This document shows, one piece after another, positions 28,786-39,869 of a DNA stretch of 64,000 nt. How positions within the stretch are numbered: the stretch's first letter is position 1; each line of letters starts with the position of its first letter. Under the pieces are notes generated by a model. The model was not told the origin of the DNA. It worked only from the letters and a program-made list of their open reading frames with translations, and did no database searches. The position numbers were made by a program, and so were the translations under genes. The stretch spans positions 310,001 to 374,000 of the forward strand of contig NZ_QBUG01000001.1 of assembly GCF_003058225.1 (NCBI RefSeq), written 5' to 3'. The stretch comes from Promicromonospora sp. AC04. GTDB taxonomy: Bacteria; Actinomycetota; Actinomycetes; Actinomycetales; Cellulomonadaceae.

Positions 28786-30216
28786 TCAGCCGCGGCCGAC
28801 CAGGATGCGGGTGTCCGCGACCGTCACCACCGAACCGGTGACGAGCACGCCCGTACCGACGCCGCTGCCGTGCTTGTCGTCGGCCTCGGCCAGGTCCGTC
28901 GCGATCTGCAGCGCCTCGTCCAGCCGGCCGGCCACGTGCACGCGTTCCTCCCCGAAGACCTCGCGCGCCACCTCGGCCAGGTCCTCCGGGTCTGCGGACC
29001 GGTCCGACGAGTTCCGGGTGACCACGATCTCCGCGACCGTCGGCTCCAGGACGGACAGGAGCCCCTCGGAGTCCTTGTCGGCCATCATGGCCAGGACGGC
29101 GACGATGTGCCCCAGGTTGAACGACTCCTCCAGCGCGTCCACCAGGGCCTCCGCCCCCGCGGGGTTGTGCGCGACGTCGACCAGCACCGTGGGGCTGGAG
29201 CGCACCAGCTCGAGGCGACCCGGCGCGTCGACGTCGCCGAACGCCACCTCGACGATCTCCGCACCCAGAGCGCGGCCGCCGCTGAGCAGGGCCTCCGTGG
29301 CCGCGAGCGCCAGCAGGGCGTTGTGCGCCTGGTGCGCCCCGTGCAAGGGCAGGAAGATCTCGGTGTAGACGCCCGCGGGCGTGCGCAGGTCGATGAGCTG
29401 TCCGCCGACGGCGATGCGCCGGTCCATGACCTCGAGGTCCACGCCCTCGCGGATCAGGTGGGCGTTGACCGACCGGGCGCGCGCGAGGATCGGTTCGAGG
29501 GCGTCGTCGCGCTGCTCCGCGATCACGGCGACGGCGCCGTCCTTGATGATTCCCGCCTTCTCGGTGGCAATCTCGTCGAGCGTGGAGCCGAGCCAGCGCT
29601 CGTGGTCCATGGCTATGGGCGTGATGACGGCGACCTCGCCGTCGACGACGTTGGTGGAGTCCCACCGGCCGCCCATGCCGACCTCGATGATCGCTATGTC
29701 GACGGGCGCGTCGGCGAATGCGGCGAAGGCCATGACGGTGAGCACCTCGAAGAAGCTCAGGGGCGGGCCGCCCTGCTCCTGGGACTCGCGGTCGGCGACG
29801 CCGATGTAGGGCGCGACGTCCTCGAACACCTCGACGAACCGTTCCTGGGTGAGGGGCTCGCCGTCGACGGCGATGCGCTCGGTGACGCTCGTCAGGTGCG
29901 GGGACGTGAACCGGCCGGTACGCAGGCCGTGCTCGCGCACCAGGCGCTCGACCATGCGGGCCGTGGAGGACTTGCCGTTGGTCCCGGTGATGTGGACGGT
30001 CCGGTAGGCGCGGTGCGGGTCGCCGAGCAGCTCCAGGACGCGCTCGACGCGGGCCATGGTGGGGTCGATGTCGTGCTCGGGCTGCCGGGACAGGATCTCC
30101 TTGTAGACCCGGTTCAGTGCCTCTTGGACGGCGGGGTCCGCGTTCTCGGCGCCGCGGCTGGTACCGCGGCGATTGCTGGATCCGTCGCGGAGGGTCTTGT
30201 TCAGGGAGTCGGCCAC
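28786..30216 (-). CDS. folC: Dihydrofolate/folylpolyglutamate synthase
   Basis: Adds glutamates to folates, and L-glutamate to dihydropteroate, with ATP. The 476-residue Mur-ligase-family protein starts at GTG 30216 (VADSLNKTLRDGS). The P-loop is TVHITGTNGKSSTARMVERL; other motifs are GRFTSPHLTSVTERIAV, MGGRWDSTNVVDGEVAVIT and DVAHNPAGAEALVDALEE. An N-terminal extension of about 40 residues precedes the catalytic core. In most relatives it sits between ileS or valS and DUF4233/ndk; here accessory genes lie on both sides. Confidence 0.95.
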   Translation of the reverse strand: MADSLNKTLRDGSSNRRGTSRGAENADPAVQEALNRVYKEILSRQPEHDIDPTMARVERVLELLGDPHRAYRTVHITGTNGKSSTARMVERLVREHGLRTGRFTSPHLTSVTERIAVDGEPLTQERFVEVFEDVAPYIGVADRESQEQGGPPLSFFEVLTVMAFAAFADAPVDIAIIEVGMGGRWDSTNVVDGEVAVITPIAMDHERWLGSTLDEIATEKAGIIKDGAVAVIAEQRDDALEPILARARSVNAHLIREGVDLEVMDRRIAVGGQLIDLRTPAGVYTEIFLPLHGAHQAHNALLALAATEALLSGGRALGAEIVEVAFGDVDAPGRLELVRSSPTVLVDVAHNPAGAEALVDALEESFNLGHIVAVLAMMADKDSEGLLSVLEPTVAEIVVTRNSSDRSADPEDLAEVAREVFGEERVHVAGRLDEALQIATDLAEADDKHGSGVGTGVLVTGSVVTVADTRILVGRG

Positions 30217-30325
30217 GTACCGAGGATATGTTTCCGCGGGCCGCAAGACCGCATCCGGGCCCGACGACGGCTGCGTGCGCGCCAGTAGTGTTCGGTCCAC
30301 GCGCCGCACGCTGTGAGGAGATCGC

Positions 30326-31558
30326 ATGCCCGGTCCTGGTCCTTCTCAGTCACAGAGCACCGTGGTCGCCGCCGCCCGCTCCGGGTTGCCGTCCTCGATT
30401 CCGATCGTCATCCTGACCGACAACGTCCTGGGGGCCGCGTCGGGTCCGGTGCCGGTCCAGGTCCATCACGGAGAGCGCCGAGCTGACGCCTGGGCGTGGA
30501 GCGAGCATGCTTGGGAGTCGGCGCCCCAGGAGAGCGGATCGGCTGACGATCTCGTGGGTGACACCGCGACGAGGGTCGCGAGACGAGCTTGGATGACTCG
30601 CCTCCTGCTCGAGAGCCTCGACCTGCACGACGTCGACGACCTGGAGACACGAACCGTGTCCGTGGCTGTGCCCAGAGCTGTCCTGTGCAAGCCGGTACTG
30701 CCTCTCGTGCACGACCTGCCTGACAACACCGAGGTTCAGGTGTCACGGAGCGACTTCGACGACCCGCACAACCGCCACGTGCTGGTGCGCAACGGCGTTG
30801 CCGCATGGGTCAACCTCGTCCCACGCGACCATGTCCGACCGGGAACGGTTCGCATATCGAACCATCTGAGAGCCATCACCGAACCGGCGGCCGCTCAGGC
30901 CTCGAGAACAGCACCCGTGGCGATCCTCCGTCCTCAGCATGGCGAACCGCCCGTCCGTCAGGCCTCGACACGTGGCGCAGCAGTCGCGTGGCGGATTCGC
31001 ACCCACCTCAGGTTCGCCACCGAGATGGTCCTGCGTTGGACCTTTGGTGCCCCGGAGCAGCTGATGCGAGTAGTGCCCGCGCATCCGGACGACGAGCACG
31101 GGCACGTCGTGGCGCTCCAAGAGGTGGCCCTGACCCGTCTCGGCCTTCGATCAGGTGACATGGTCGTTCTCCGATGGGGCACGTCAGAGGTTGAAGTTGC
31201 GGTCGTAGCGGATCACGACACACCTGCGGCGGAACGACCCTCGATGCCCCACGACCGGTCCAAGCCCGGATTCGCCACCGCGATGCCGATCCACTTGGCG
31301 ATCCGCGTCCCGACCGCTCTGCGGTTCGTGATGGGGCTTCCCGGCGCCGCCGTGGTGTCGGTCAGACGCAGCACACGCTCGGTCCTCGCGCGCAACCTCA
31401 ACAGTCTCGTGATCCCGGTCGCGAGCCTTGCACTTGCCGGTGCCGCCCTGAACGACCCGAACTGGTGGCTCCTGGCATGCGGTGCGGTAGCAACGGCCGT
31501 GCTCGGCCTGAGCCGGCTTCGGTTGAGCACTCGGCGCGCGACGCAGCTTCACGGCTGA
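30326..31558 (+). CDS. Unknown protein with beta-barrel-like repeats and C-terminal membrane anchor
   Basis: I do not recognise a family. It has 410 residues; ATG 30326 follows GAGGAG. The N-terminal two thirds are soluble, with three segments of similar pattern: VAVPRAVLCKP...DNTEVQVSR, EVALTRLGLRSGDMVVLRWG and IRVPTALRFVMGLPGAAVVS (the DNTEVQVSR end belongs to the first). These resemble double-psi beta-barrel or AbrB-like strands that place Gly-Asp/Ala before a valine-rich strand (inference). The C-terminus has two hydrophobic helices (LVIPVASLALAGAALN; WWLLACGAVATAVLGL) and a short basic tail, so it is probably membrane-anchored. It is followed, same strand, by a helicase-nuclease gene 227 bp away, and lies in the folC-ileS island. 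Codon use looks less GC-rich than the neighbours. Confidence 0.6.
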   Translation: MPGPGPSQSQSTVVAAARSGLPSSIPIVILTDNVLGAASGPVPVQVHHGERRADAWAWSEHAWESAPQESGSADDLVGDTATRVARRAWMTRLLLESLDLHDVDDLETRTVSVAVPRAVLCKPVLPLVHDLPDNTEVQVSRSDFDDPHNRHVLVRNGVAAWVNLVPRDHVRPGTVRISNHLRAITEPAAAQASRTAPVAILRPQHGEPPVRQASTRGAAVAWRIRTHLRFATEMVLRWTFGAPEQLMRVVPAHPDDEHGHVVALQEVALTRLGLRSGDMVVLRWGTSEVEVAVVADHDTPAAERPSMPHDRSKPGFATAMPIHLAIRVPTALRFVMGLPGAAVVSVRRSTRSVLARNLNSLVIPVASLALAGAALNDPNWWLLACGAVATAVLGLSRLRLSTRRATQLHG

Positions 31559-31785
31559 CGTCGTGGACGTCGAGACCGAGATGGGGTTCACACCACCGTT
31601 GGCCTGACGCAGGACCGGCGCAATCCCATCAACGTGGGGCCACCGAGCCTCAAGCAGCTGCGACCTCGCGGTCGACAATTGCGGATGCACCCGCGAGAAA
31701 GTATCACCGCCGTGAATGCCACATCCGGAACCCGCGGATACGTTGCAGTTGTTCGTCCTGGTTGCTGGTGGGGCTCTGGTGAGGG

Positions 31786-34647
31786 GTGTGGCTGACGATG
31801 ATCGATCCGCGCGTGCAGGGCATCCTCATCAGGAGGAAGGCAGATGAGGGACCAGGATTCACCCGCGACGGCGACGACCTGCGCAACTACCGCATCGATG
31901 GGAACTACGTCATCGTGACCCTAAAGGGGCCGAAGCCGCTCCCGTACAACCGCCGCCGGATCGTATTCCTGGAGGTCCCCGAACGGATCGATCTGCCAGC
32001 CGACACGCAGGTGATCGCCGAAGGTTGCCTGCAGGAGAACGTGATCGACCTCTACCGGTTCACCACCCCGCACGACGGCGCCTGGATCCGAGTGTTCCGG
32101 ACCGACGACGGCCACAACAGGTTCGATACCTACGCTGAGCACACCGTGCGATTCGGCACCAGCAGCCCGGTGGCCGAGACCGCTCCGCGGGACGTCCTCA
32201 GGTACCTGCGCGACGTCGTCGCTCACATGCCGCCTGATGCGCCGCTGCACAAGACCTTCAAGGATCTCAGCGACGTCCACCCGGACAGCGCGCTCGCGCG
32301 CTTCCTCACTGGCGACCTGCTCAAGCCACGCAAACGGTCCACTGATGCGGGCGGCGAACTGATCTTTCCGTTCGGTACCAACATCAGCCAGCGTGAGGCT
32401 GTCGAAACCGCGCTTGCCCACCCGGTCTCCGTGATCGACGGGCCACCCGGTACCGGAAAGACCCAGTCGATCCTGAGCCTCGTGGCGAACATCGTGCGCG
32501 AGCCTGGCAGCACCGTCGGGATCGTGTCCCACGCCAACGCAGCTGTCGAGAATGTCCGCGAGAAGCTGACCAGGGAGGGCTTCGGCGTCGTAGTCGCCGA
32601 CCTTGGGCGGCGGGAGAAGCGCGATGCGTTCTTTGCGAGCCAGGCTGCGCGCAACGCCGAGATCCCGAGCTTTCTCGACCGTTCCGCGCAGCAGCGTCCG
32701 GACGAGGCGGAGCTGGCCGACCTGGGCAGGCAAATTCACGGGCTGCAACGGGTCGAACGGCAGTGCGCGGAGCATCGCGCACAGGCTGCCGCCTTCCGCA
32801 CTGAACGCCGCCACTTTCACCGGCACGTCGAGCAGCACGAGCTGCCCGATCTCTCGCAGTTTCCGCTGCTGCGCAGATCGTCCGAGAAGATTCTGCGATT
32901 TCTCGCGGAGTCCGAGCTCGCGCCCGTGCCGAAGAACCGCCTGCGCCGCCTCATGGGACAGGTCAGGCGCTACCTCCAGTTCGGGGTCCCGGACCAGGTC
33001 GACCCAGACGACGTCGAGAACGTGCTCGCCCTGCAGCTGGCCTACTACGACAAGAAGATCGCCGAGCTTGAACACGCCGCCGAGAACGCGCAGGGCGCGT
33101 TGGAACTCAACGACTTCGACGGGCGCGTCGAACGGCACCGCGAGCTGTCCCAGGCTGCCCTGCGCACCGCGCTCGCGGAACGCTACCGACGGGGCACCGC
33201 AACGTACAGCGCCCGAGATTTCACCGAGCCGGGCACGTTCGAGCAGTTCGTCGTCGACTATCCCGTGATCCTCAGCACCTGCCAGTCCCTGCGCAGATGT
33301 GTCCGTCCTGGGTACCTGCTCGACTACCTCATCATCGACGAGGCATCCCAGGTGGACCTGCCGTCCGCGGTGCTGGCCCTCTCGTGCGCGCGCCGCGTGG
33401 TCGTGGTCGGCGACGAGAAGCAGCTGCCGCACATCCCCGCGAAGCAAGCCACCAACGGGCTGACCGCGCCGGCGCTGGTCTACGACTACGACCGGCACAA
33501 CATCCTGTCGTCCGTGCTCGGCATCATGGGCTCGGACGCCGGTAAGCCCCGCAGGGTTCCCCGCCGCATGCTGCGCGAGCACTACCGCTGCGACCCGGCG
33601 ATCATCGACTTCTGCAACCGCAAGTTCTACGACGACAAGCTCATCCCCATGACCGAGCACAAGCGTAGTGCTCGGAGCCTAGCGATACGGCCGACGGTCG
33701 AGGGAAACCACACGCGAAGGCTCGCCGACGGCAGCAGCTACAACGTGCGGGAGGCGCAGGTGATAGCCGGAGAGGTGCTCCCCCGGGAACAACAACGCAG
33801 CGGGCCGGGCAGCGTCGGCGTCGTCACCCCGTTCCGGCGGCAGGTCGACCAGGTCACGGCGACCATCGACGACGTCGGCATCGAGGTCGACACGGTGCAC
33901 AAGTACCAGGGCCGTGAGAAGCCGACCATGATCCTCACTACCGTTCTCGACGAGTCCAAGCAGGGGCACATCAGCGCCAAGTTCCTGGACAACCCGAACC
34001 TCGTCAATGTCGCGGTCTCCCGCGCGGCAGAGCGGCTCGTGGTGGTCACCAACCACGCTATGTTGCCCCGGACACGGCACGTCAGGGAGCTGCTGGACTA
34101 CATCCGGTACCAGGACCCGAACAACGTTGTGCAGTCGGAACTCGTCTCCATCTTCGACCTGCTCTACCGCGAGTACTCGCTCCGCCTCGAAGCGTTCGCC
34201 CGGAAGGTCAAGGGTCCCTCCAGATACCTCTCGGAGAACGCCGCAGAGACACAGCTGCGCGAGATCCTCGCGGGCGAGGATCAGTACAGCAGCCTGAAGG
34301 TCGCCCGCCAGGTCCGGCTGGCTCATCTCGCGCGTGACCCTGGGCTGGTGGCCGAACTGACAGCGCGGCAGAACTCGTTCCGGCGCCGCTCGTCGGTCGA
34401 CTTCGTGGTGTACAACCGGATCACGCTCCGGCCGGTGCTCGCCGTCGAGGTGGACGGCCACAACCACATGATCGACCCAAAGCAGGTCGAGCGGGACAAG
34501 ATCAAGAACGAGATGCTCGACCGGATCGGCCTGCCTTTGCTACGGCTGGTAACCAGCGACAGCGGTGAACCCGACCGCATCCGGCACCGCCTCGAGAAGG
34601 CGCTCCGATCCGCTACCGCTCTCCCGGTCCCGGAATTCGAGACCTGA
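31786..34647 (+). CDS. SF1 (DNA2/NAM7-like) helicase with C-terminal DUF2726-type nuclease domain
   Basis: A 953-residue protein. Motifs in order: a unique N-terminal part (1-190); Q-like FGTNISQREAVETAL (197-211); Walker A VIDGPPGTGKTQSI (about 216-229); Ia VSHANAAVENV; a helical insertion (265-490); Walker B LIIDEASQVDLP (DEAS near 519); III VVGDEKQLPHI; REHYRCDPAIIDFCNRKFY; V TVHKYQGREKPTMIL; VI NVAVSRAAERLVVVTN. The tail (about 855-940) reads RRSSVDFVVYNRITLRPVLA then VEVDGHNH and NEMLDRIGLPLLRLV, the D...ExD pattern of DUF2726, a Vsr/DUF559-like nuclease fold. Helicase-nuclease fusions of this kind are typical of phage-defence genes. The start is GTG 31786 or ATG 31798, both behind GAGGGG. 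Confidence 0.85.
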   Translation: MWLTMIDPRVQGILIRRKADEGPGFTRDGDDLRNYRIDGNYVIVTLKGPKPLPYNRRRIVFLEVPERIDLPADTQVIAEGCLQENVIDLYRFTTPHDGAWIRVFRTDDGHNRFDTYAEHTVRFGTSSPVAETAPRDVLRYLRDVVAHMPPDAPLHKTFKDLSDVHPDSALARFLTGDLLKPRKRSTDAGGELIFPFGTNISQREAVETALAHPVSVIDGPPGTGKTQSILSLVANIVREPGSTVGIVSHANAAVENVREKLTREGFGVVVADLGRREKRDAFFASQAARNAEIPSFLDRSAQQRPDEAELADLGRQIHGLQRVERQCAEHRAQAAAFRTERRHFHRHVEQHELPDLSQFPLLRRSSEKILRFLAESELAPVPKNRLRRLMGQVRRYLQFGVPDQVDPDDVENVLALQLAYYDKKIAELEHAAENAQGALELNDFDGRVERHRELSQAALRTALAERYRRGTATYSARDFTEPGTFEQFVVDYPVILSTCQSLRRCVRPGYLLDYLIIDEASQVDLPSAVLALSCARRVVVVGDEKQLPHIPAKQATNGLTAPALVYDYDRHNILSSVLGIMGSDAGKPRRVPRRMLREHYRCDPAIIDFCNRKFYDDKLIPMTEHKRSARSLAIRPTVEGNHTRRLADGSSYNVREAQVIAGEVLPREQQRSGPGSVGVVTPFRRQVDQVTATIDDVGIEVDTVHKYQGREKPTMILTTVLDESKQGHISAKFLDNPNLVNVAVSRAAERLVVVTNHAMLPRTRHVRELLDYIRYQDPNNVVQSELVSIFDLLYREYSLRLEAFARKVKGPSRYLSENAAETQLREILAGEDQYSSLKVARQVRLAHLARDPGLVAELTARQNSFRRRSSVDFVVYNRITLRPVLAVEVDGHNHMIDPKQVERDKIKNEMLDRIGLPLLRLVTSDSGEPDRIRHRLEKALRSATALPVPEFET

Positions 34648-34762: not shown

Positions 34763-34801
34763 AGCCCGGGCTACCCGCCTAATCGGGCGGGCTCCCGGGC
34801 T
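34763..34801 (+). terminator. Strong terminator after the helicase-nuclease gene
   Basis: AGCCCGGG (34763-34770) pairs with CCCGGGCT (34794-34801), and inside it CCCGCC (34774-34779) pairs with GGCGGG (34786-34791) around a short AATC-containing loop. It lies 116 bp after the stop codon and closes the 30326-34647 unit. The rest of the 463 bp spacer to 35110 shows no credible gene, only a second inverted repeat at 34911 and the protease promoter region. Confidence 0.75.
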
Positions 34802-34910
34802 CACTTCTCAGGGCTATTGCCCATCGCACTCCCAACAGTACTAATACCCCCTGGTTCCGCAAGCGTCTCCGACAAGAGTTGTGCGCCCAAGGTCTCTTTC
34901 CACCAAGCCT

Positions 34911-34944
34911 TTGCGCATGCTCCAGTGCCGGAATGCATGCGCAA
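34911..34944. promoter_or_regulatory. Perfect inverted repeat upstream of the S1 protease
   Basis: TTGCGCATGC (34911-34920) and GCATGCGCAA (34935-34944) form a perfect 10 bp dyad with a 14-base spacer, 167 bp upstream of the protease ATG. It could be an operator for a dimeric regulator or a leader hairpin. No regulator gene is adjacent. Confidence 0.45.
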
Positions 34945-35110
34945 TCGCTTGGTCGCGGCGGACTTCTTCCCGGCCCACGCCCGCACGAAGCGCAACACGC
35001 CCGCCCCCGCCCGCACCACGTACCGTGTTGCGGCATTTCACCCTGTGAAGAACGATGTCACCGCGGCGTCAGACGTGAGGCGCACGGTCCGTCGAGGGGG
35101 AAACGACAGC

Positions 35111-36460
35111 ATGAGACGAAAGAGCTCGGTGCAGCGCGCGATCGTCGTCGGGGCCGTGGCGCTGGCCGCGGCGCTCTCCGCACCGGCCGCGGCCTCCGCG
35201 CCAGCCACCTCCGCGCCCGCCGCCTCCGCGCCAGCAGCGGCCGGTGACTCCACCAGCCAGTCCGATCAGGTCCAGGCGGCCACGGTGTCCGCCGTCGACC
35301 ACGCCGCCGGGGCTGCCACCGCCCTTGCCGAGAAGCCCGGCTATGCCGGGGTCGCCGTCGACTACGACGCCGCGAAGGTGACCGTCTCCTGGAAGGGCGA
35401 CGCTCCGGCGTCGGTCAGTGCGCTGGAGACGAAGGTGCCTGACGGTGTGACCGTCGACGTCGAGCGGACGCCGCTCAGCGAGGCGGACCTGCACGCCGCG
35501 AGCACCCGGCTGCTGGACAGCCAGCGCGCGGCGCACGGCCCTGACGCAGTGGTCGCCGCGTTCCCGGCCGAGGACTACGCGAGCCTGGTCGTCGAGGTCA
35601 GCCGCGACTCGGCCCTCGCCCGCGAGGCGGGGTCTACCGTCGCCAGCGAGACGGGCGCCAGCAAGACAGGCGCCAGCGAGACGGCCGCCGCCCGCACAAC
35701 CAGCCTGGCCCAGAGCCTCGAAGAAGAGGCAGGCGTCCCGGTCCGGGTCGAGCTCGTCGACGATGGCGTCCAGCCCACCGCCGCCAGCCGTCGCAACGAC
35801 GCCGCCCCCTGGACCGCCGGCGGGGCGATGGCCACGACCAGCGGCTCGGACTACTGCACGACCGGCTTCTCGATAGTCACCGCCGCCGGCAACCACAAGA
35901 TCGTCAGCGCCGCGCACTGCAACGCGGGGGTCGGCTCCCTGGTCCGCGACGGCATCGGCCAGCGGCTGGGCACTGTCGCCAACCGCGCGGCAGGCATCGA
36001 CGCCGAGCTCATCGACCCGGTCGGCAACCCCGAGACGGCAGGCGCCGTGTTCGGCGGCCCGTGGAACGCGTCCAGCGTCAACTCGCGCTACCGGTTCCCG
36101 GTGGCGGCGGTGCACCAGCCCGCCGTCGGGCAGAACATCTGCTCCTCCGGAGCGGTCACCGGCGAGCACTGCGGGGCGAAGATCCGCGCCACCGACGTCG
36201 CCTGGACCTGCGGCAACCGCACGTGCCACGGGTTCCGGGCGAGCCGCGACGACGGCGGTGTCGTGGTGGGCGGCGGCGACAGCGGCGGCCCGATGTACAT
36301 AGTCATCAACGGCCAGGCGTACGCCCGCGGGATGATCGACGGCGGCTCGAACCGCCGCAGCTGCGGAAGCACCTCGGTGCCCACCCAGTGCTTCTCGTAC
36401 GTCTACGGCATCCCGATGGTGGACATCCTGAACCACTGGAACGCCCGCATCGACAACTGA
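35111..36460 (+). CDS. Secreted S1 family (chymotrypsin-fold) serine protease with pro-region
   Basis: A 449-residue preproprotein. The signal peptide is residues 1-28 (RRKSSVQRAIVVGAVALAAA then LSAPAAASA), followed by an Ala/Pro/Ser-rich stretch and a pro-region up to about 240. That region includes a repeated SETGASKTGASETAAA patch. The catalytic domain has KIVSAAHCNAGVG (His about 268), GIDAELI (Asp about 297) and VVVGGGDSGGPMYIV (Ser about 391), with six or more Cys suggesting disulfides (AAHC; YCTTG; NICSSG; EHCGAK; TCGNRTC; SCGS). It resembles streptogrisin/alpha-lytic-type extracellular proteases. ATG 35111 is preferred over an upstream in-frame start at 34817, because it directly precedes the signal peptide. 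Confidence 0.88.
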   Translation: MRRKSSVQRAIVVGAVALAAALSAPAAASAPATSAPAASAPAAAGDSTSQSDQVQAATVSAVDHAAGAATALAEKPGYAGVAVDYDAAKVTVSWKGDAPASVSALETKVPDGVTVDVERTPLSEADLHAASTRLLDSQRAAHGPDAVVAAFPAEDYASLVVEVSRDSALAREAGSTVASETGASKTGASETAAARTTSLAQSLEEEAGVPVRVELVDDGVQPTAASRRNDAAPWTAGGAMATTSGSDYCTTGFSIVTAAGNHKIVSAAHCNAGVGSLVRDGIGQRLGTVANRAAGIDAELIDPVGNPETAGAVFGGPWNASSVNSRYRFPVAAVHQPAVGQNICSSGAVTGEHCGAKIRATDVAWTCGNRTCHGFRASRDDGGVVVGGGDSGGPMYIVINGQAYARGMIDGGSNRRSCGSTSVPTQCFSYVYGIPMVDILNHWNARIDN

Positions 36461-36554: not shown

Positions 36555-39500
36555 TCAGGCCTTCGTCACCGCCACCGCGCGCTCGGCGCCCGCGGTCACC
36601 GCGAGGCTCGTCGCCAGCGTCTCGCGCGACACCAGCTCGCGGTGCTCCTCGACGGCCGCGACCCACTCGGCCGGCACCGTCAGGTCCAGCGCGATCCGGT
36701 CGGCGACCTGCAGACCCGCCGCCTTGCGCGCGTCCTGCACATCCCGCACGACGTCGCGGGCGTAACCCTCGGCGCGCAGCGCGTCGTCGAGCTCGAGGTC
36801 GAGCACCACGAAGCCGCCGCCCGCGAGCACGGCGGCCGCGACGTCGGCCGACTCCGCGGACTCGCCGCCCACAACGGTCGTCAGCTCGTACTCGGTCTCG
36901 AGCAGTTCGACGTCGCCGTCGGCCGTCGCGACCACCACTGCGCCGGCGTCGGACTTGGACCACGCGCCGGACTTCGCCGCCTTGATCACTGCCTGCACCC
37001 CGCGCCCGAGGCGCGGGCCCGCGGCCCGGGCATTGACGGCGAGACGCTCGGTGATGCCGTAGTCGGCGGCCACCTCGGGCGAGAACGCGACGAGGCGCAC
37101 CTCCTTGACGTTCAGCTCCGTCTCCAGCAGCCCGGCGAACGGCGCGACGCCGTCCGGGTCTGCCACGGCCACGACGAGCGACCGCAGCGGCTGCCGCACG
37201 CGCAGCTTGTTCGCCTTGCGCAGCGCCAGCGTCTGCGACACCACGGCCCGCGCGGACTCGACGGCGGCCACGAGCGCGTCGTCGGCCACCAGCACGTCCG
37301 CCTCCGCGCAGCGCATCGTCGCGCCCTCGGGCGCGGCGATCGACGGCCACTCCGCCAGGTGCACCGAGCGCTCGCCGGTCAGGCCGCGCCAGACCTCCTC
37401 CGTGAGCAGCGGCGCCAGCGGCGCCATCACCCGGCACAGCACCTCGAGCGCGGTGGACAGGGTGTCGAACGCGTCGGCGTCCTCCGCCCAGAACCGGTCG
37501 CGCTGAGTGCGCACGTACCAGTTGGTCAGGGCGTCCAGGTACTGGCGCACCGAGTCGCAGGCGCCCGCGATGTCGTACCCGTCGAGCTGCTCGGTCACGT
37601 CCGCGACCAGCCCGCGCGTGCGCGCCAGCAGGTAGCGGTCCATGACGGGCAGCGCGGCCACCCGCTCCGCCGTCAGGGGCTGCGCGGCGTAGCCCGCGCC
37701 GTCCGAGGCGGCGTTGGCGTACAGCGTGAAGAAGTAGTACGTGCTCCACAGCGGCAGCAGCACCTGGCGCACCGCGTCGCGGATCCCCTCCTCCGTGACC
37801 ACGAGGTTGCCGCCGCGCAGGATCGGCGACGCCATGAGGAACCAGCGCATCGCGTCGGAGCCGTCGCGGTCGAAGACCTCGTTGACGTCCGGGTAGTTCT
37901 TCAGCGACTTCGACATCTTGCGCCCGTCGGAGCCCAGCACGATGCCGTGCGACAGCGCCGTCTGGAAGGCCGGCCGGTCGAACAGCGACGTGGCCAGCAC
38001 GTGCAGCGTGTAGAACCAGCCGCGCGTCTGCCCGATGTACTCGACGATGAAGTCGCCCGGGTAGTGGTGCTCGAACCAGTCGGCGTTCTCGAACGGGTAG
38101 TGCACCTGCGCGTACGGCATGGAGCCGGAGTCGAACCAGACGTCCAGGACGTCCTCGACCCTTCGCATGGTCGAGGCCCCGGACGGATCGTCCGGGTTGG
38201 GCCGCGTCAGCTCGTCGACGAACGGGCGGTGCAGGTCCGGGTTGCCGTCCTTGTCGCGCGGCAGGCGCCCGAAGTCACGCTCGAGCTCCTCGAACGACCC
38301 GTAGACGTCGATCCGCGGGTAGGCGGGGTTGTCCGACTTCCACACCGGCACGGGCGAGCCCCAGAACCGGTTGCGCGTGATCGACCAGTCGCGGGCGTTC
38401 TCCAGCCACTTGCCGAACTGGCCCTGCTTGATGTGGTCCGGCACCCAGGTGATCTGCTCGTTCAGCTCGACCATGCGGTCCTTGAACTTCGTCACCTCGA
38501 CGAACCACGAGGACACGCCCATGTAGATCAGCGGCTGACGGCAGCGCCAGCAGTGCGGGTACGAGTGCGCGTACTGCTCGCGGCGCAGCAGCACCGTGCC
38601 CGACGTCGTCCGCCCCGCCTCGTCGTCTGCCGCACCGCGCGTGCGGGCCTTGAGGTGGTCGATGATCGGCGCGTTCGCGTCGAAGACCTGCAGGCCCGCG
38701 TACTCCTCCACGGGGAAGGTGAAGCGCCCGTCGGCGCCCACGGGGATAACCGGCTCCACGCCCTCGCGGTCGCTGACCTGCTTGTCCTCCTCACCGAAGG
38801 CGCCGGCGTTGTGCACCAGGCCCGTGCCGTCGGTGGTGGTGACGAAGTCGGCCTCGACCACGCGGTGGGCGCCGGTGTGCCCCTCGAAGTACGAGAACGG
38901 GGGCTCGTAGGCAGCGCCCAGCAGGTCGCTCCCCTTGAGCCGCCCGACGACGCTGGGCGCCTCCGCACCCTCGTCCGTCAGCTCCCGCGCGTACGCGTCC
39001 ACGCGGGCCTCCGCCAGGACGTAGCGCTGCGGCGTGCCGGTGAAGGACGACTCGACCACCGCGTAGTCGACGTCTGGCCCCACCATGACGAGCAGGTTGG
39101 ACGGCAGGGTCCACGGCGTGGTGGTCCAGATCAGCAGGTGGTCGCCCGCGCGGAGCACCTCGCCGCCGTCGGGCACCTCCGTGACCCGGAAGCCGACCGT
39201 GACGGACGGGTCCTGCCGCTGCTGGTACACGTCGTCGTCCATGCGCAGCTCGTGGTTGCTCAGCGGCGTCTGGTCGTTCCAGCAGTAGGGCAGCACGCGG
39301 AAGCCCTCGTAGATCAGGCCCTTGTCGAACAGCGACTTGAAGGCCCAGATGACGCTCTCCATGAACGTCGGGTTCAGGGTCTTGTAGTCGTTGTCGAAGT
39401 CCACCCAGCGGGCCTGGCGCGTCACGTACGTGCGCCACTCGTCGGTGTACTTGAGCACGCTGGAGCGGCAGGCCTCGTTGAACTTGTCGATGCCGAGCTC

Positions 39501-39869
39501 GACGATCTCGTCCTTGGTCTTGATGCCGAGCTGGTTCATCGCCTCCAGCTCCGCCGGCAGGCCGTGCGTGTCCCAGCCGAAGCGGCGCTCGACGCGCTGC
39601 CCGCGCATGGTCCGGTAGCGGGGCACGACGTCCTTCGCGTACCCGGTCAGCAGGTGGCCGTAGTGGGGCAGGCCGTTCGCGAACGGCGGGCCGTCGTAGA
39701 AGACGAACTCGTTGCTGCCGTTCTCGCCGGCCGGGCGGGCGTCGACCGACGCGCGGAAGGTGTCGTCCTGCTCCCAGTACGCGAGGACGTCGCGCTCGAG
39801 GTCGGGCAGGCTGGGTGACGCGGGCACGGGGTTTTCGGCGTCGCTGGGACGGTGCAGCGGATAGGCCAT
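36555..39869 (-). CDS. ileS: Isoleucyl-tRNA synthetase, type 2
   Basis: Charges tRNA-Ile; a 1104-residue class I synthetase. The catalytic HIGH-type motif is [20 protein letters not shown] (HYGH at 69-72), the KMSKS loop [15 protein letters not shown] is near 650, and the CP1 editing domain ([16 protein letters not shown]) lies between. The length and the HYGH form match the IleRS2 group found in actinobacteria and eukaryotes, which as a class tolerates mupirocin. The C-terminal tRNA-binding domain is divergent ([20 protein letters not shown]). Translation is probably controlled by the T-box leader upstream. Confidence 0.97.

Follow-up and report, generated by a model that had tools for sequence, protein, structure and literature searches.

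The 64,000-nucleotide stretch of the Promicromonospora sp. AC04 genome (contig NZ_QBUG01000001.1, positions 310,001 to 374,000; hereafter the window) carries, between folC and ileS, a gene for a UPF1-like superfamily 1 (SF1) helicase with a C-terminal DUF2726 nuclease, HEL, preceded by a gene for a membrane-anchored barrel protein, P1. HEL is probably a single-gene, horizontally spread defence protein, and P1 the remnant of an older operon rather than its partner. A sequence-only reading of the window had paired the two genes as a defence module; both of its open reading frames (ORFs), of 410 and 953 amino acids, are present at the coordinates it gave, and the pairing fails on comparison with related genomes. 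Window coordinates of the interval and its flanks are as follows.

28786..30327, minus strand: folC, with Mur_ligase_M and Mur_ligase_C; bounds the variable interval on the left; start codon uncertain
30326..31558, plus strand: P1, 410-amino-acid membrane-anchored barrel protein, equivalent to the C-terminal portion of a longer form seen in 10 of 12 other homologues
31055..31378, plus strand: P1 residues 244-351, predicted double-psi beta-barrel of the p97/CDC48-N type
31373..31522, plus strand: two predicted P1 membrane helices, residues 350-374 and 380-399 (secondary structure of the model, hydropathy)
31557..31607, plus strand: 3'-end fossil of ML, the FolC-like ligase gene that follows P1 in 10 relatives (codon and DNA match)
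31701..31785, plus strand: leader upstream of HEL, conserved between the window and the relative G001 (blastn)
31786..34647, plus strand: HEL, 953-amino-acid UPF1-like SF1 helicase with C-terminal DUF2726 nuclease
32176..34146, plus strand: HEL residues 131-787, UPF1/IGHMBP2-like helicase core
34291..34599, plus strand: HEL residues 836-938, DUF2726 nuclease of PD-(D/E)xK type with D872, E888 and D890 (PF10881)
34763..34801, plus strand: GC-rich hairpin 3' of HEL, lacking a T-run (folding against shuffles)
34817..36460, plus strand: PROT, protease-like ORF (GDSGGP motif) that adjoins ileS in the genus and bounds the interval on the right
36555..39869, minus strand: ileS, right flank, 76-94% identical where the compared stretches reach it

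HEL has the two RecA-like domains, the SF1 motifs and the UPF1/IGHMBP2 fold of a UPF1-like helicase. AAA_11, AAA_12 and DUF2726 all exceed their Pfam cut-offs, the last (PF10881) with 49.0 bits against a gathering cut-off of 24.7. In an alignment of 62 sequences, the window's included, the nuclease signature D872...E888-x-D890 is invariant, as are Q900, D904, K907 and the Walker A residues, bearing out the description of HEL as an SF1 helicase with a C-terminal D...ExD nuclease. Residues 11-126, modelled as part of HEL, are beta-rich. The nearest solved folds are Ighmbp2, UPF1, Sen1/SETX and DNA2, and the comparison with eukaryotic DNA2 gives a phmmer E of 1.3e-22.

The distribution of HEL is patchy. 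Homologues of HEL and P1 were sought in 149 relatives (the genome of the window, G000, included), 13 of the genomes compared being of the same genus (own included), and HEL was counted at E<=1e-80 in an order-wide sample of 396 genomes; scoring of HEL was limited to the best-looking candidates in each genome, five among the relatives and two in the order-wide sample. Full-length HEL occurs in 5 of the 149, 10 of the 396 and 2 of the 13 same-genus genomes, and because of this scatter we reject a universal housekeeping role, which would have counted against the sequence-only reading. Homologues nevertheless extend, by record title, across many phyla: a scan of species genomes gave at least 520 relatives of any quality, and among the best 80 of these, 66 are complete ORFs of 840-970 amino acids. 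Matches are found in 1065 of 72,556 plasmid records, and in four of these a matching place spans 80% of the query. One such homologue, from an E. coli plasmid record, is 35.5% identical to HEL over 80% of its length; 643 of 5426 E. coli genomes (~12%) carry near-identical copies, all chromosomal. The three E. coli loci viewed (L166, L167 and L168) share an order in which the HEL homologue is followed, 500 nucleotides on, by a PAPS-reductase gene and then by IbrB-like and PerC-family genes; they also contain pseudogenes, with insertion sequence (IS) elements in two, none listed in the third, and type I restriction genes in one. We also considered and rejected the idea that HEL is a phage gene, since matches came from 9 of 50,697 phage records and in none of them reached 80% of the query; IMG/VR, in a scan sensitive to close relatives only, gave three loci, two with identical match figures.

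P1 is not linked to HEL. Among the 149 relatives, 13 carry P1, 5 carry full-length HEL and 4 carry both, and the two are adjacent in the window only; elsewhere they lie 13 kb apart in the same interval (G001), on different contigs (G014) or 1.4 Mb apart (G025). In the order-wide sample P1 occurs in two genomes, G000 and G025, both among the ten with HEL. A P1 profile run against 22 other HEL genomes and one plasmid gave a single match, in Nocardia, to an amidohydrolase-like domain, and P1 had no match on plasmids.

P1 belongs instead with folC. Homologues occur in 13 of the 149 relatives, the window's own included, and in all 12 others P1 adjoins a folC orthologue 68-92% identical to that of the window. 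In 10 of the 13 genomes P1 is long (~630-680 amino acids, starts picked by eye), with a common extra N-terminal region that, in the one long P1 scanned (G001), matches PF05013, N-formylglutamate amidohydrolase, at E 2.7e-07. The remaining three (G000, G008 and G047) have a short P1 in which this domain is missing, and the short forms make up one clade (support 1.0) on a long branch. Directly after P1 lies ML in 10 of 10 long-P1 genomes and 0 of 3 short-P1 genomes. ML is FolC-like, with 26% identity to folC across some 340-350 residues in two genomes, and has no Pfam match up to E 0.01; six P1-less genomes checked gave only weak ML matches, to FolC-type genes. G001 (L046:10492-13664) and nine other genomes have, beside folC in 10 of 10, a two-gene unit in which a membrane-anchored protein with amidohydrolase-like and double-psi-barrel parts precedes a FolC-like ligase.

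The sequence-only reading placed P1 in no recognised family, and it has no Pfam match above cut-off and none in PADLOC or NCBIfam up to E 1. Its barrel and two C-terminal membrane helices also hold: the model is of barrel type with helices at 350-374 and 380-399, and 19-residue windows with a hydropathy above 1.5 begin at 353, 357-358 and 382, as well as at 328, within the barrel. Strands predicted in residues 1-240 suggest a further barrel. Between the short P1 of the window and that of G008, dN (nonsynonymous divergence) is 0.35 and dS (synonymous divergence) 1.27, a dN/dS of ~0.28 that is rough because dS exceeds 1; the ratio suggests that short P1 is kept by purifying selection.

A trace of ML lies between P1 and HEL. 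Just past the P1 stop, positions 31564-31607 are 84% identical in DNA to the 3' end of the G012 ML (44 nucleotides, E 2.7e-07), and in the reading frame 10 of 14 codons match ML residues 405-418, with E 0.48 in one comparison and 0.012-0.023 in another. This fossil would account for how P1 and HEL came to be neighbours in the window, and the pairing looks like a false module produced by gene loss and insertion. Similar traces occur elsewhere. G008, the other genome of the genus with a short P1, still matches the final ML codons together with the sequence that follows them (75% identity in 115 columns, E 3.7e-18) and, more weakly, ML proper (71 columns, E 5e-04). G001 has a second ML 3'-end copy (L046:8486-8572, ~87 nucleotides), which lies between its ATPase gene and HmaB and is 84% identical to the ML of G001 itself and 75-86% to the ML of four relatives. 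Given these remnants in the window, G008 and G001, ML 3' ends sit at module joints, and recombination between them could plausibly drive gene gain and loss; as repeats they may mark joints in the folC-ileS hotspot.

The folC-ileS interval is a variable hotspot, and HEL is its cargo. The claim that P1 and HEL form an island between folC and ileS is upheld by an empty site in 3 of the 13 same-genus genomes (G004, G005 and G006), in which folC abuts the protease-like ORF and ileS, and P1 and HEL are absent. PROT lies beside ileS in 12 of the 13, empty sites included, and is not in the G009 stretch; it was not detected in six loci of the two other genera. It has no Pfam match up to E 0.1, and the protease call rests on its GDSGGP motif. 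Other cargo of the interval includes ML with an ATPase (PADLOC PDC-S27 in G001), a PIN-domain gene (G012) and an Imm33/glutamine-amidase gene (G008). The G008 cargo (L041:8876-10926) consists of an unassigned ORF, with a start that by eye resembles ORFs in L047 and L043, plus the glutamine-amidase/Imm33-like protein.

In G001 the interval reads HmaB, HmaC, HmaA and HEL, located between P1-ML and protease-ileS, and its HEL is 73% identical to that of the window. The two genomes share a leader of ~85 nucleotides upstream of HEL, within a blastn match of 75% over 202 columns (window 31701-31896) that extends into HEL. We also observed that the HmaA frame of G001 (L053:12257-16066) continues into the start of HEL, possibly through a frameshift or sequencing error; an alternative frame stops ~90 nucleotides before HEL and may be the true C-terminus of HmaA. 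As for what closes the pair in the window, a 66-nucleotide stretch containing the hairpin has a folding energy of -34.1 kcal/mol (z -2.95, matched by 2 of 200 shuffles). The strong terminator of the earlier reading is thus a strong hairpin that has no T-run, and a consensus scan found 0 terminators.

The defence reading itself is suggested by the genes around HEL. Neighbours were clustered (749 proteins from 82 loci), and no family occurs in more than 10 of the 82 loci; the largest cluster has 14 proteins in 10 loci, one member ABC-transporter-like by eye. Among examples chosen by eye for scanning, HEL of G147 is followed by a PDC-S48 exonuclease and a type ISP restriction enzyme, HEL of G025 adjoins a GmrSD_N protein, and a Parabacteroides HEL has a SEFIR protein and an N6-methylase nearby. 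In Nocardia camponoti (L107:6270-12790), another of these examples, a kinase triad of TerY, PP2C and STK_OB lies immediately upstream of HEL, stop next to start.

Two pools of neighbours were searched with PADLOC models, counting families, one protein being able to match many, so that significance is approximate. Pool 1 (126 proteins, 16 loci, E<=1e-15) gave 38 families against 17 in 124 control proteins from the same genomes, the control including a JetA/JetC pair. Pool 2 (123 immediate-neighbour proteins, 31 other loci, E<=1e-30) gave 61 families, 25 of which were listed, against 3, GlgB among them, in 125 control proteins; this control was drawn from the 16 genomes of pool 1 and is unmatched to the genomes of the 31 loci. 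Judged from the names shown, the distinct proteins number 8-10 among pool 2 neighbours and 2 in the control (Fisher p 0.06-0.02), and the excess is therefore suggestive rather than strong. Since HEL is patchy, accessory and repeatedly beside anti-phage genes, a defence role is the best guess, which retains the phage-defence part of the sequence-only reading and leaves P1 as a partner unsupported.

HEL also differs from the defence systems it most resembles. Its top PADLOC match is Mokosh type II MkoC (PDLC03924, 195.8 bits), which, like HEL, joins helicase and nuclease in a single chain, the best-matching stretch being the helicase part; a search against models of defence systems, as the earlier reading proposed, gave matches for HEL and none, up to E 1, for P1. 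MkoC has a PLD-like domain (PMC10952713), whereas the nuclease of HEL is DUF2726 and no PLD family is among its 15 Pfam matches up to E 0.1. The nearest described architecture is that of CnuH of CoCoNuT type III-B, a UPF1-like SF1 helicase likewise fused directly to a PD-(D/E)xK nuclease, although that of CnuH is Vsr-like (PMC11090510). CoCoNuTs as described there have McrBC-type partners, CnuB and CnuC, and III-B an N-terminal winged helix-turn-helix; HEL of the window is partnerless, with no CnuB/McrB or CnuC beside it and with folC, P1, the protease-like ORF and ileS as neighbours. TerY-P neighbours are reported for CoCoNuT types II and III-A (PMC11090510). Literature searches, which excluded bioRxiv and most subscription journals, found no description of a UPF1-like helicase-DUF2726 fusion, a silence that speaks only weakly for novelty. 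Neither PADLOC 2023 nor NCBIfam has a model for the full architecture of HEL.

Eukaryotic DNA2 resembles HEL in having an SF1 helicase and a nuclease in one chain, its nuclease being N-terminal with an Fe-S cluster and that of HEL C-terminal. The helicase and nuclease families of AbpAB, Hachiman and Nhi differ from those of HEL. These three are helicase-nuclease defences with a phage single-stranded DNA-binding protein or DNA damage as the reported trigger and may serve as a model for the trigger of HEL, AbpAB and Hachiman using two proteins where HEL has one (PMC10732053, PMC12278908). According to the former, AbpAB is activated by phage Gp32 on single-stranded DNA or by DNA damage, and Hachiman and Nhi are named among systems activated by the same protein (PMC10732053). 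DUF2726 is described in PMC3710099 as a DNase of restriction endonuclease fold fused to AbiJ-type domains, and UPF1-like helicases in PMC11090510 as acting on RNA and single-stranded DNA.

HEL alone is thus a plausible candidate single-gene defence of a known general kind. As a UPF1/DNA2-type helicase tracking along single-stranded nucleic acid with its own DUF2726 nuclease, it would, by analogy with the systems above, most likely engage exposed single strands, DNA or RNA, and cut them through DUF2726. It may load on phage replication intermediates, unprotected DNA ends or RNA; ATP-driven movement would then position or release the C-terminal nuclease, which might cut the invader or poison the infected cell. 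Most likely, P1 is left over from a resident operon next to folC, made up of an amidohydrolase-barrel-membrane protein and a FolC-like ligase, that would have lost its first domain and second gene, with HEL filling the cargo slot between P1 and protease-ileS. A wider reading is possible and rather doubtful: HEL would be the founding member of a pan-bacterial immune family that has no name yet, a single sensing-and-cutting protein that acts solo in many genomes and also serves as an interchangeable effector behind unlike sensors such as Hma, the TerY-P kinase triad and type ISP restriction.

Several observations count against HEL as a stand-alone defence protein with P1 as a bystander. The defence role is suggested by sequence comparison and gene neighbours, and DNA2-like repair enzymes have the same class of architecture. 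Many HEL loci have no recognisable defence neighbour, and three Actinomycetota records (L062, L063 and L066) place HEL, by eye, among apparent housekeeping genes. The same-genome comparison of pool 1 is the weaker one, and pool 2 has the limits of control and counting given above. Among the 149 relatives, P1 is present in 4 of 5 HEL genomes, more often than chance would give (Fisher p 0.0002); both are concentrated in the same three genera, and within these P1-bearing genera the overlap has p 0.18 (19 genomes; 13 with P1 and 4 with HEL, all 4 with P1). Finally, given its dN/dS, short P1 may still have a function.

The pairing of P1 and HEL as a two-gene defence module draws on this co-occurrence and apparent purifying selection, on a common strand with a gap of 227 bp, and on a G+C content of 64-68% across both genes against 70-79% in most flanking windows (two ileS windows have 66.8%). 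Because conserved linkage is absent (adjacency in 1 of 4 genomes with both, homologues being almost never neighbours, the finding that the sequence-only reading itself had named as refuting the module) and an ML fossil lies between the genes, we reject it; ML follows P1 in 10 of 13 genomes, and the 22 other HEL genomes yielded one partial match. The module is largely refuted and seems to us very improbable. A repair or RNA-processing role, in which HEL is an accessory, merely patchy bacterial counterpart of DNA2/UPF1, fits its nearest solved folds and its position amid apparent housekeeping genes in several genomes, but its patchiness within the genus and variable location, the excess of defence neighbours over control (61 against 3 families and, more weakly, 38 against 17) and the IS elements at two of the three E. 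coli loci make this unlikely. Less likely still is that HEL is an accessory part of Hma, a BREX-related system centred on DUF499, stranded in the window after loss of HmaABC. HEL does follow HmaA in the same interval of G001, with the leader in common, but it is itself not HmaA, HmaB or HmaC (PMC12839542), these genes are absent from the folC-ileS interval of the window, so that no Hma operon is found there, and in the P1-HEL gap, compared with G001 only, nothing outside the leader clearly resembles the end of HmaA. Protein-by-protein scans of other HEL loci showed different systems, and HmaC appears once among the 123 pool 2 neighbours, in G001 itself.

Taken as a remnant beside cargo, P1 illustrates how gene loss can yield a false two-gene module, in which a resident gene stripped of its neighbour is left beside unrelated cargo. 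Should HEL prove to be a stand-alone immune protein, a gene common in E. coli and now annotated only as 'AAA domain-containing protein' would offer a single-gene defence open to testing, its active site providing an obvious control.

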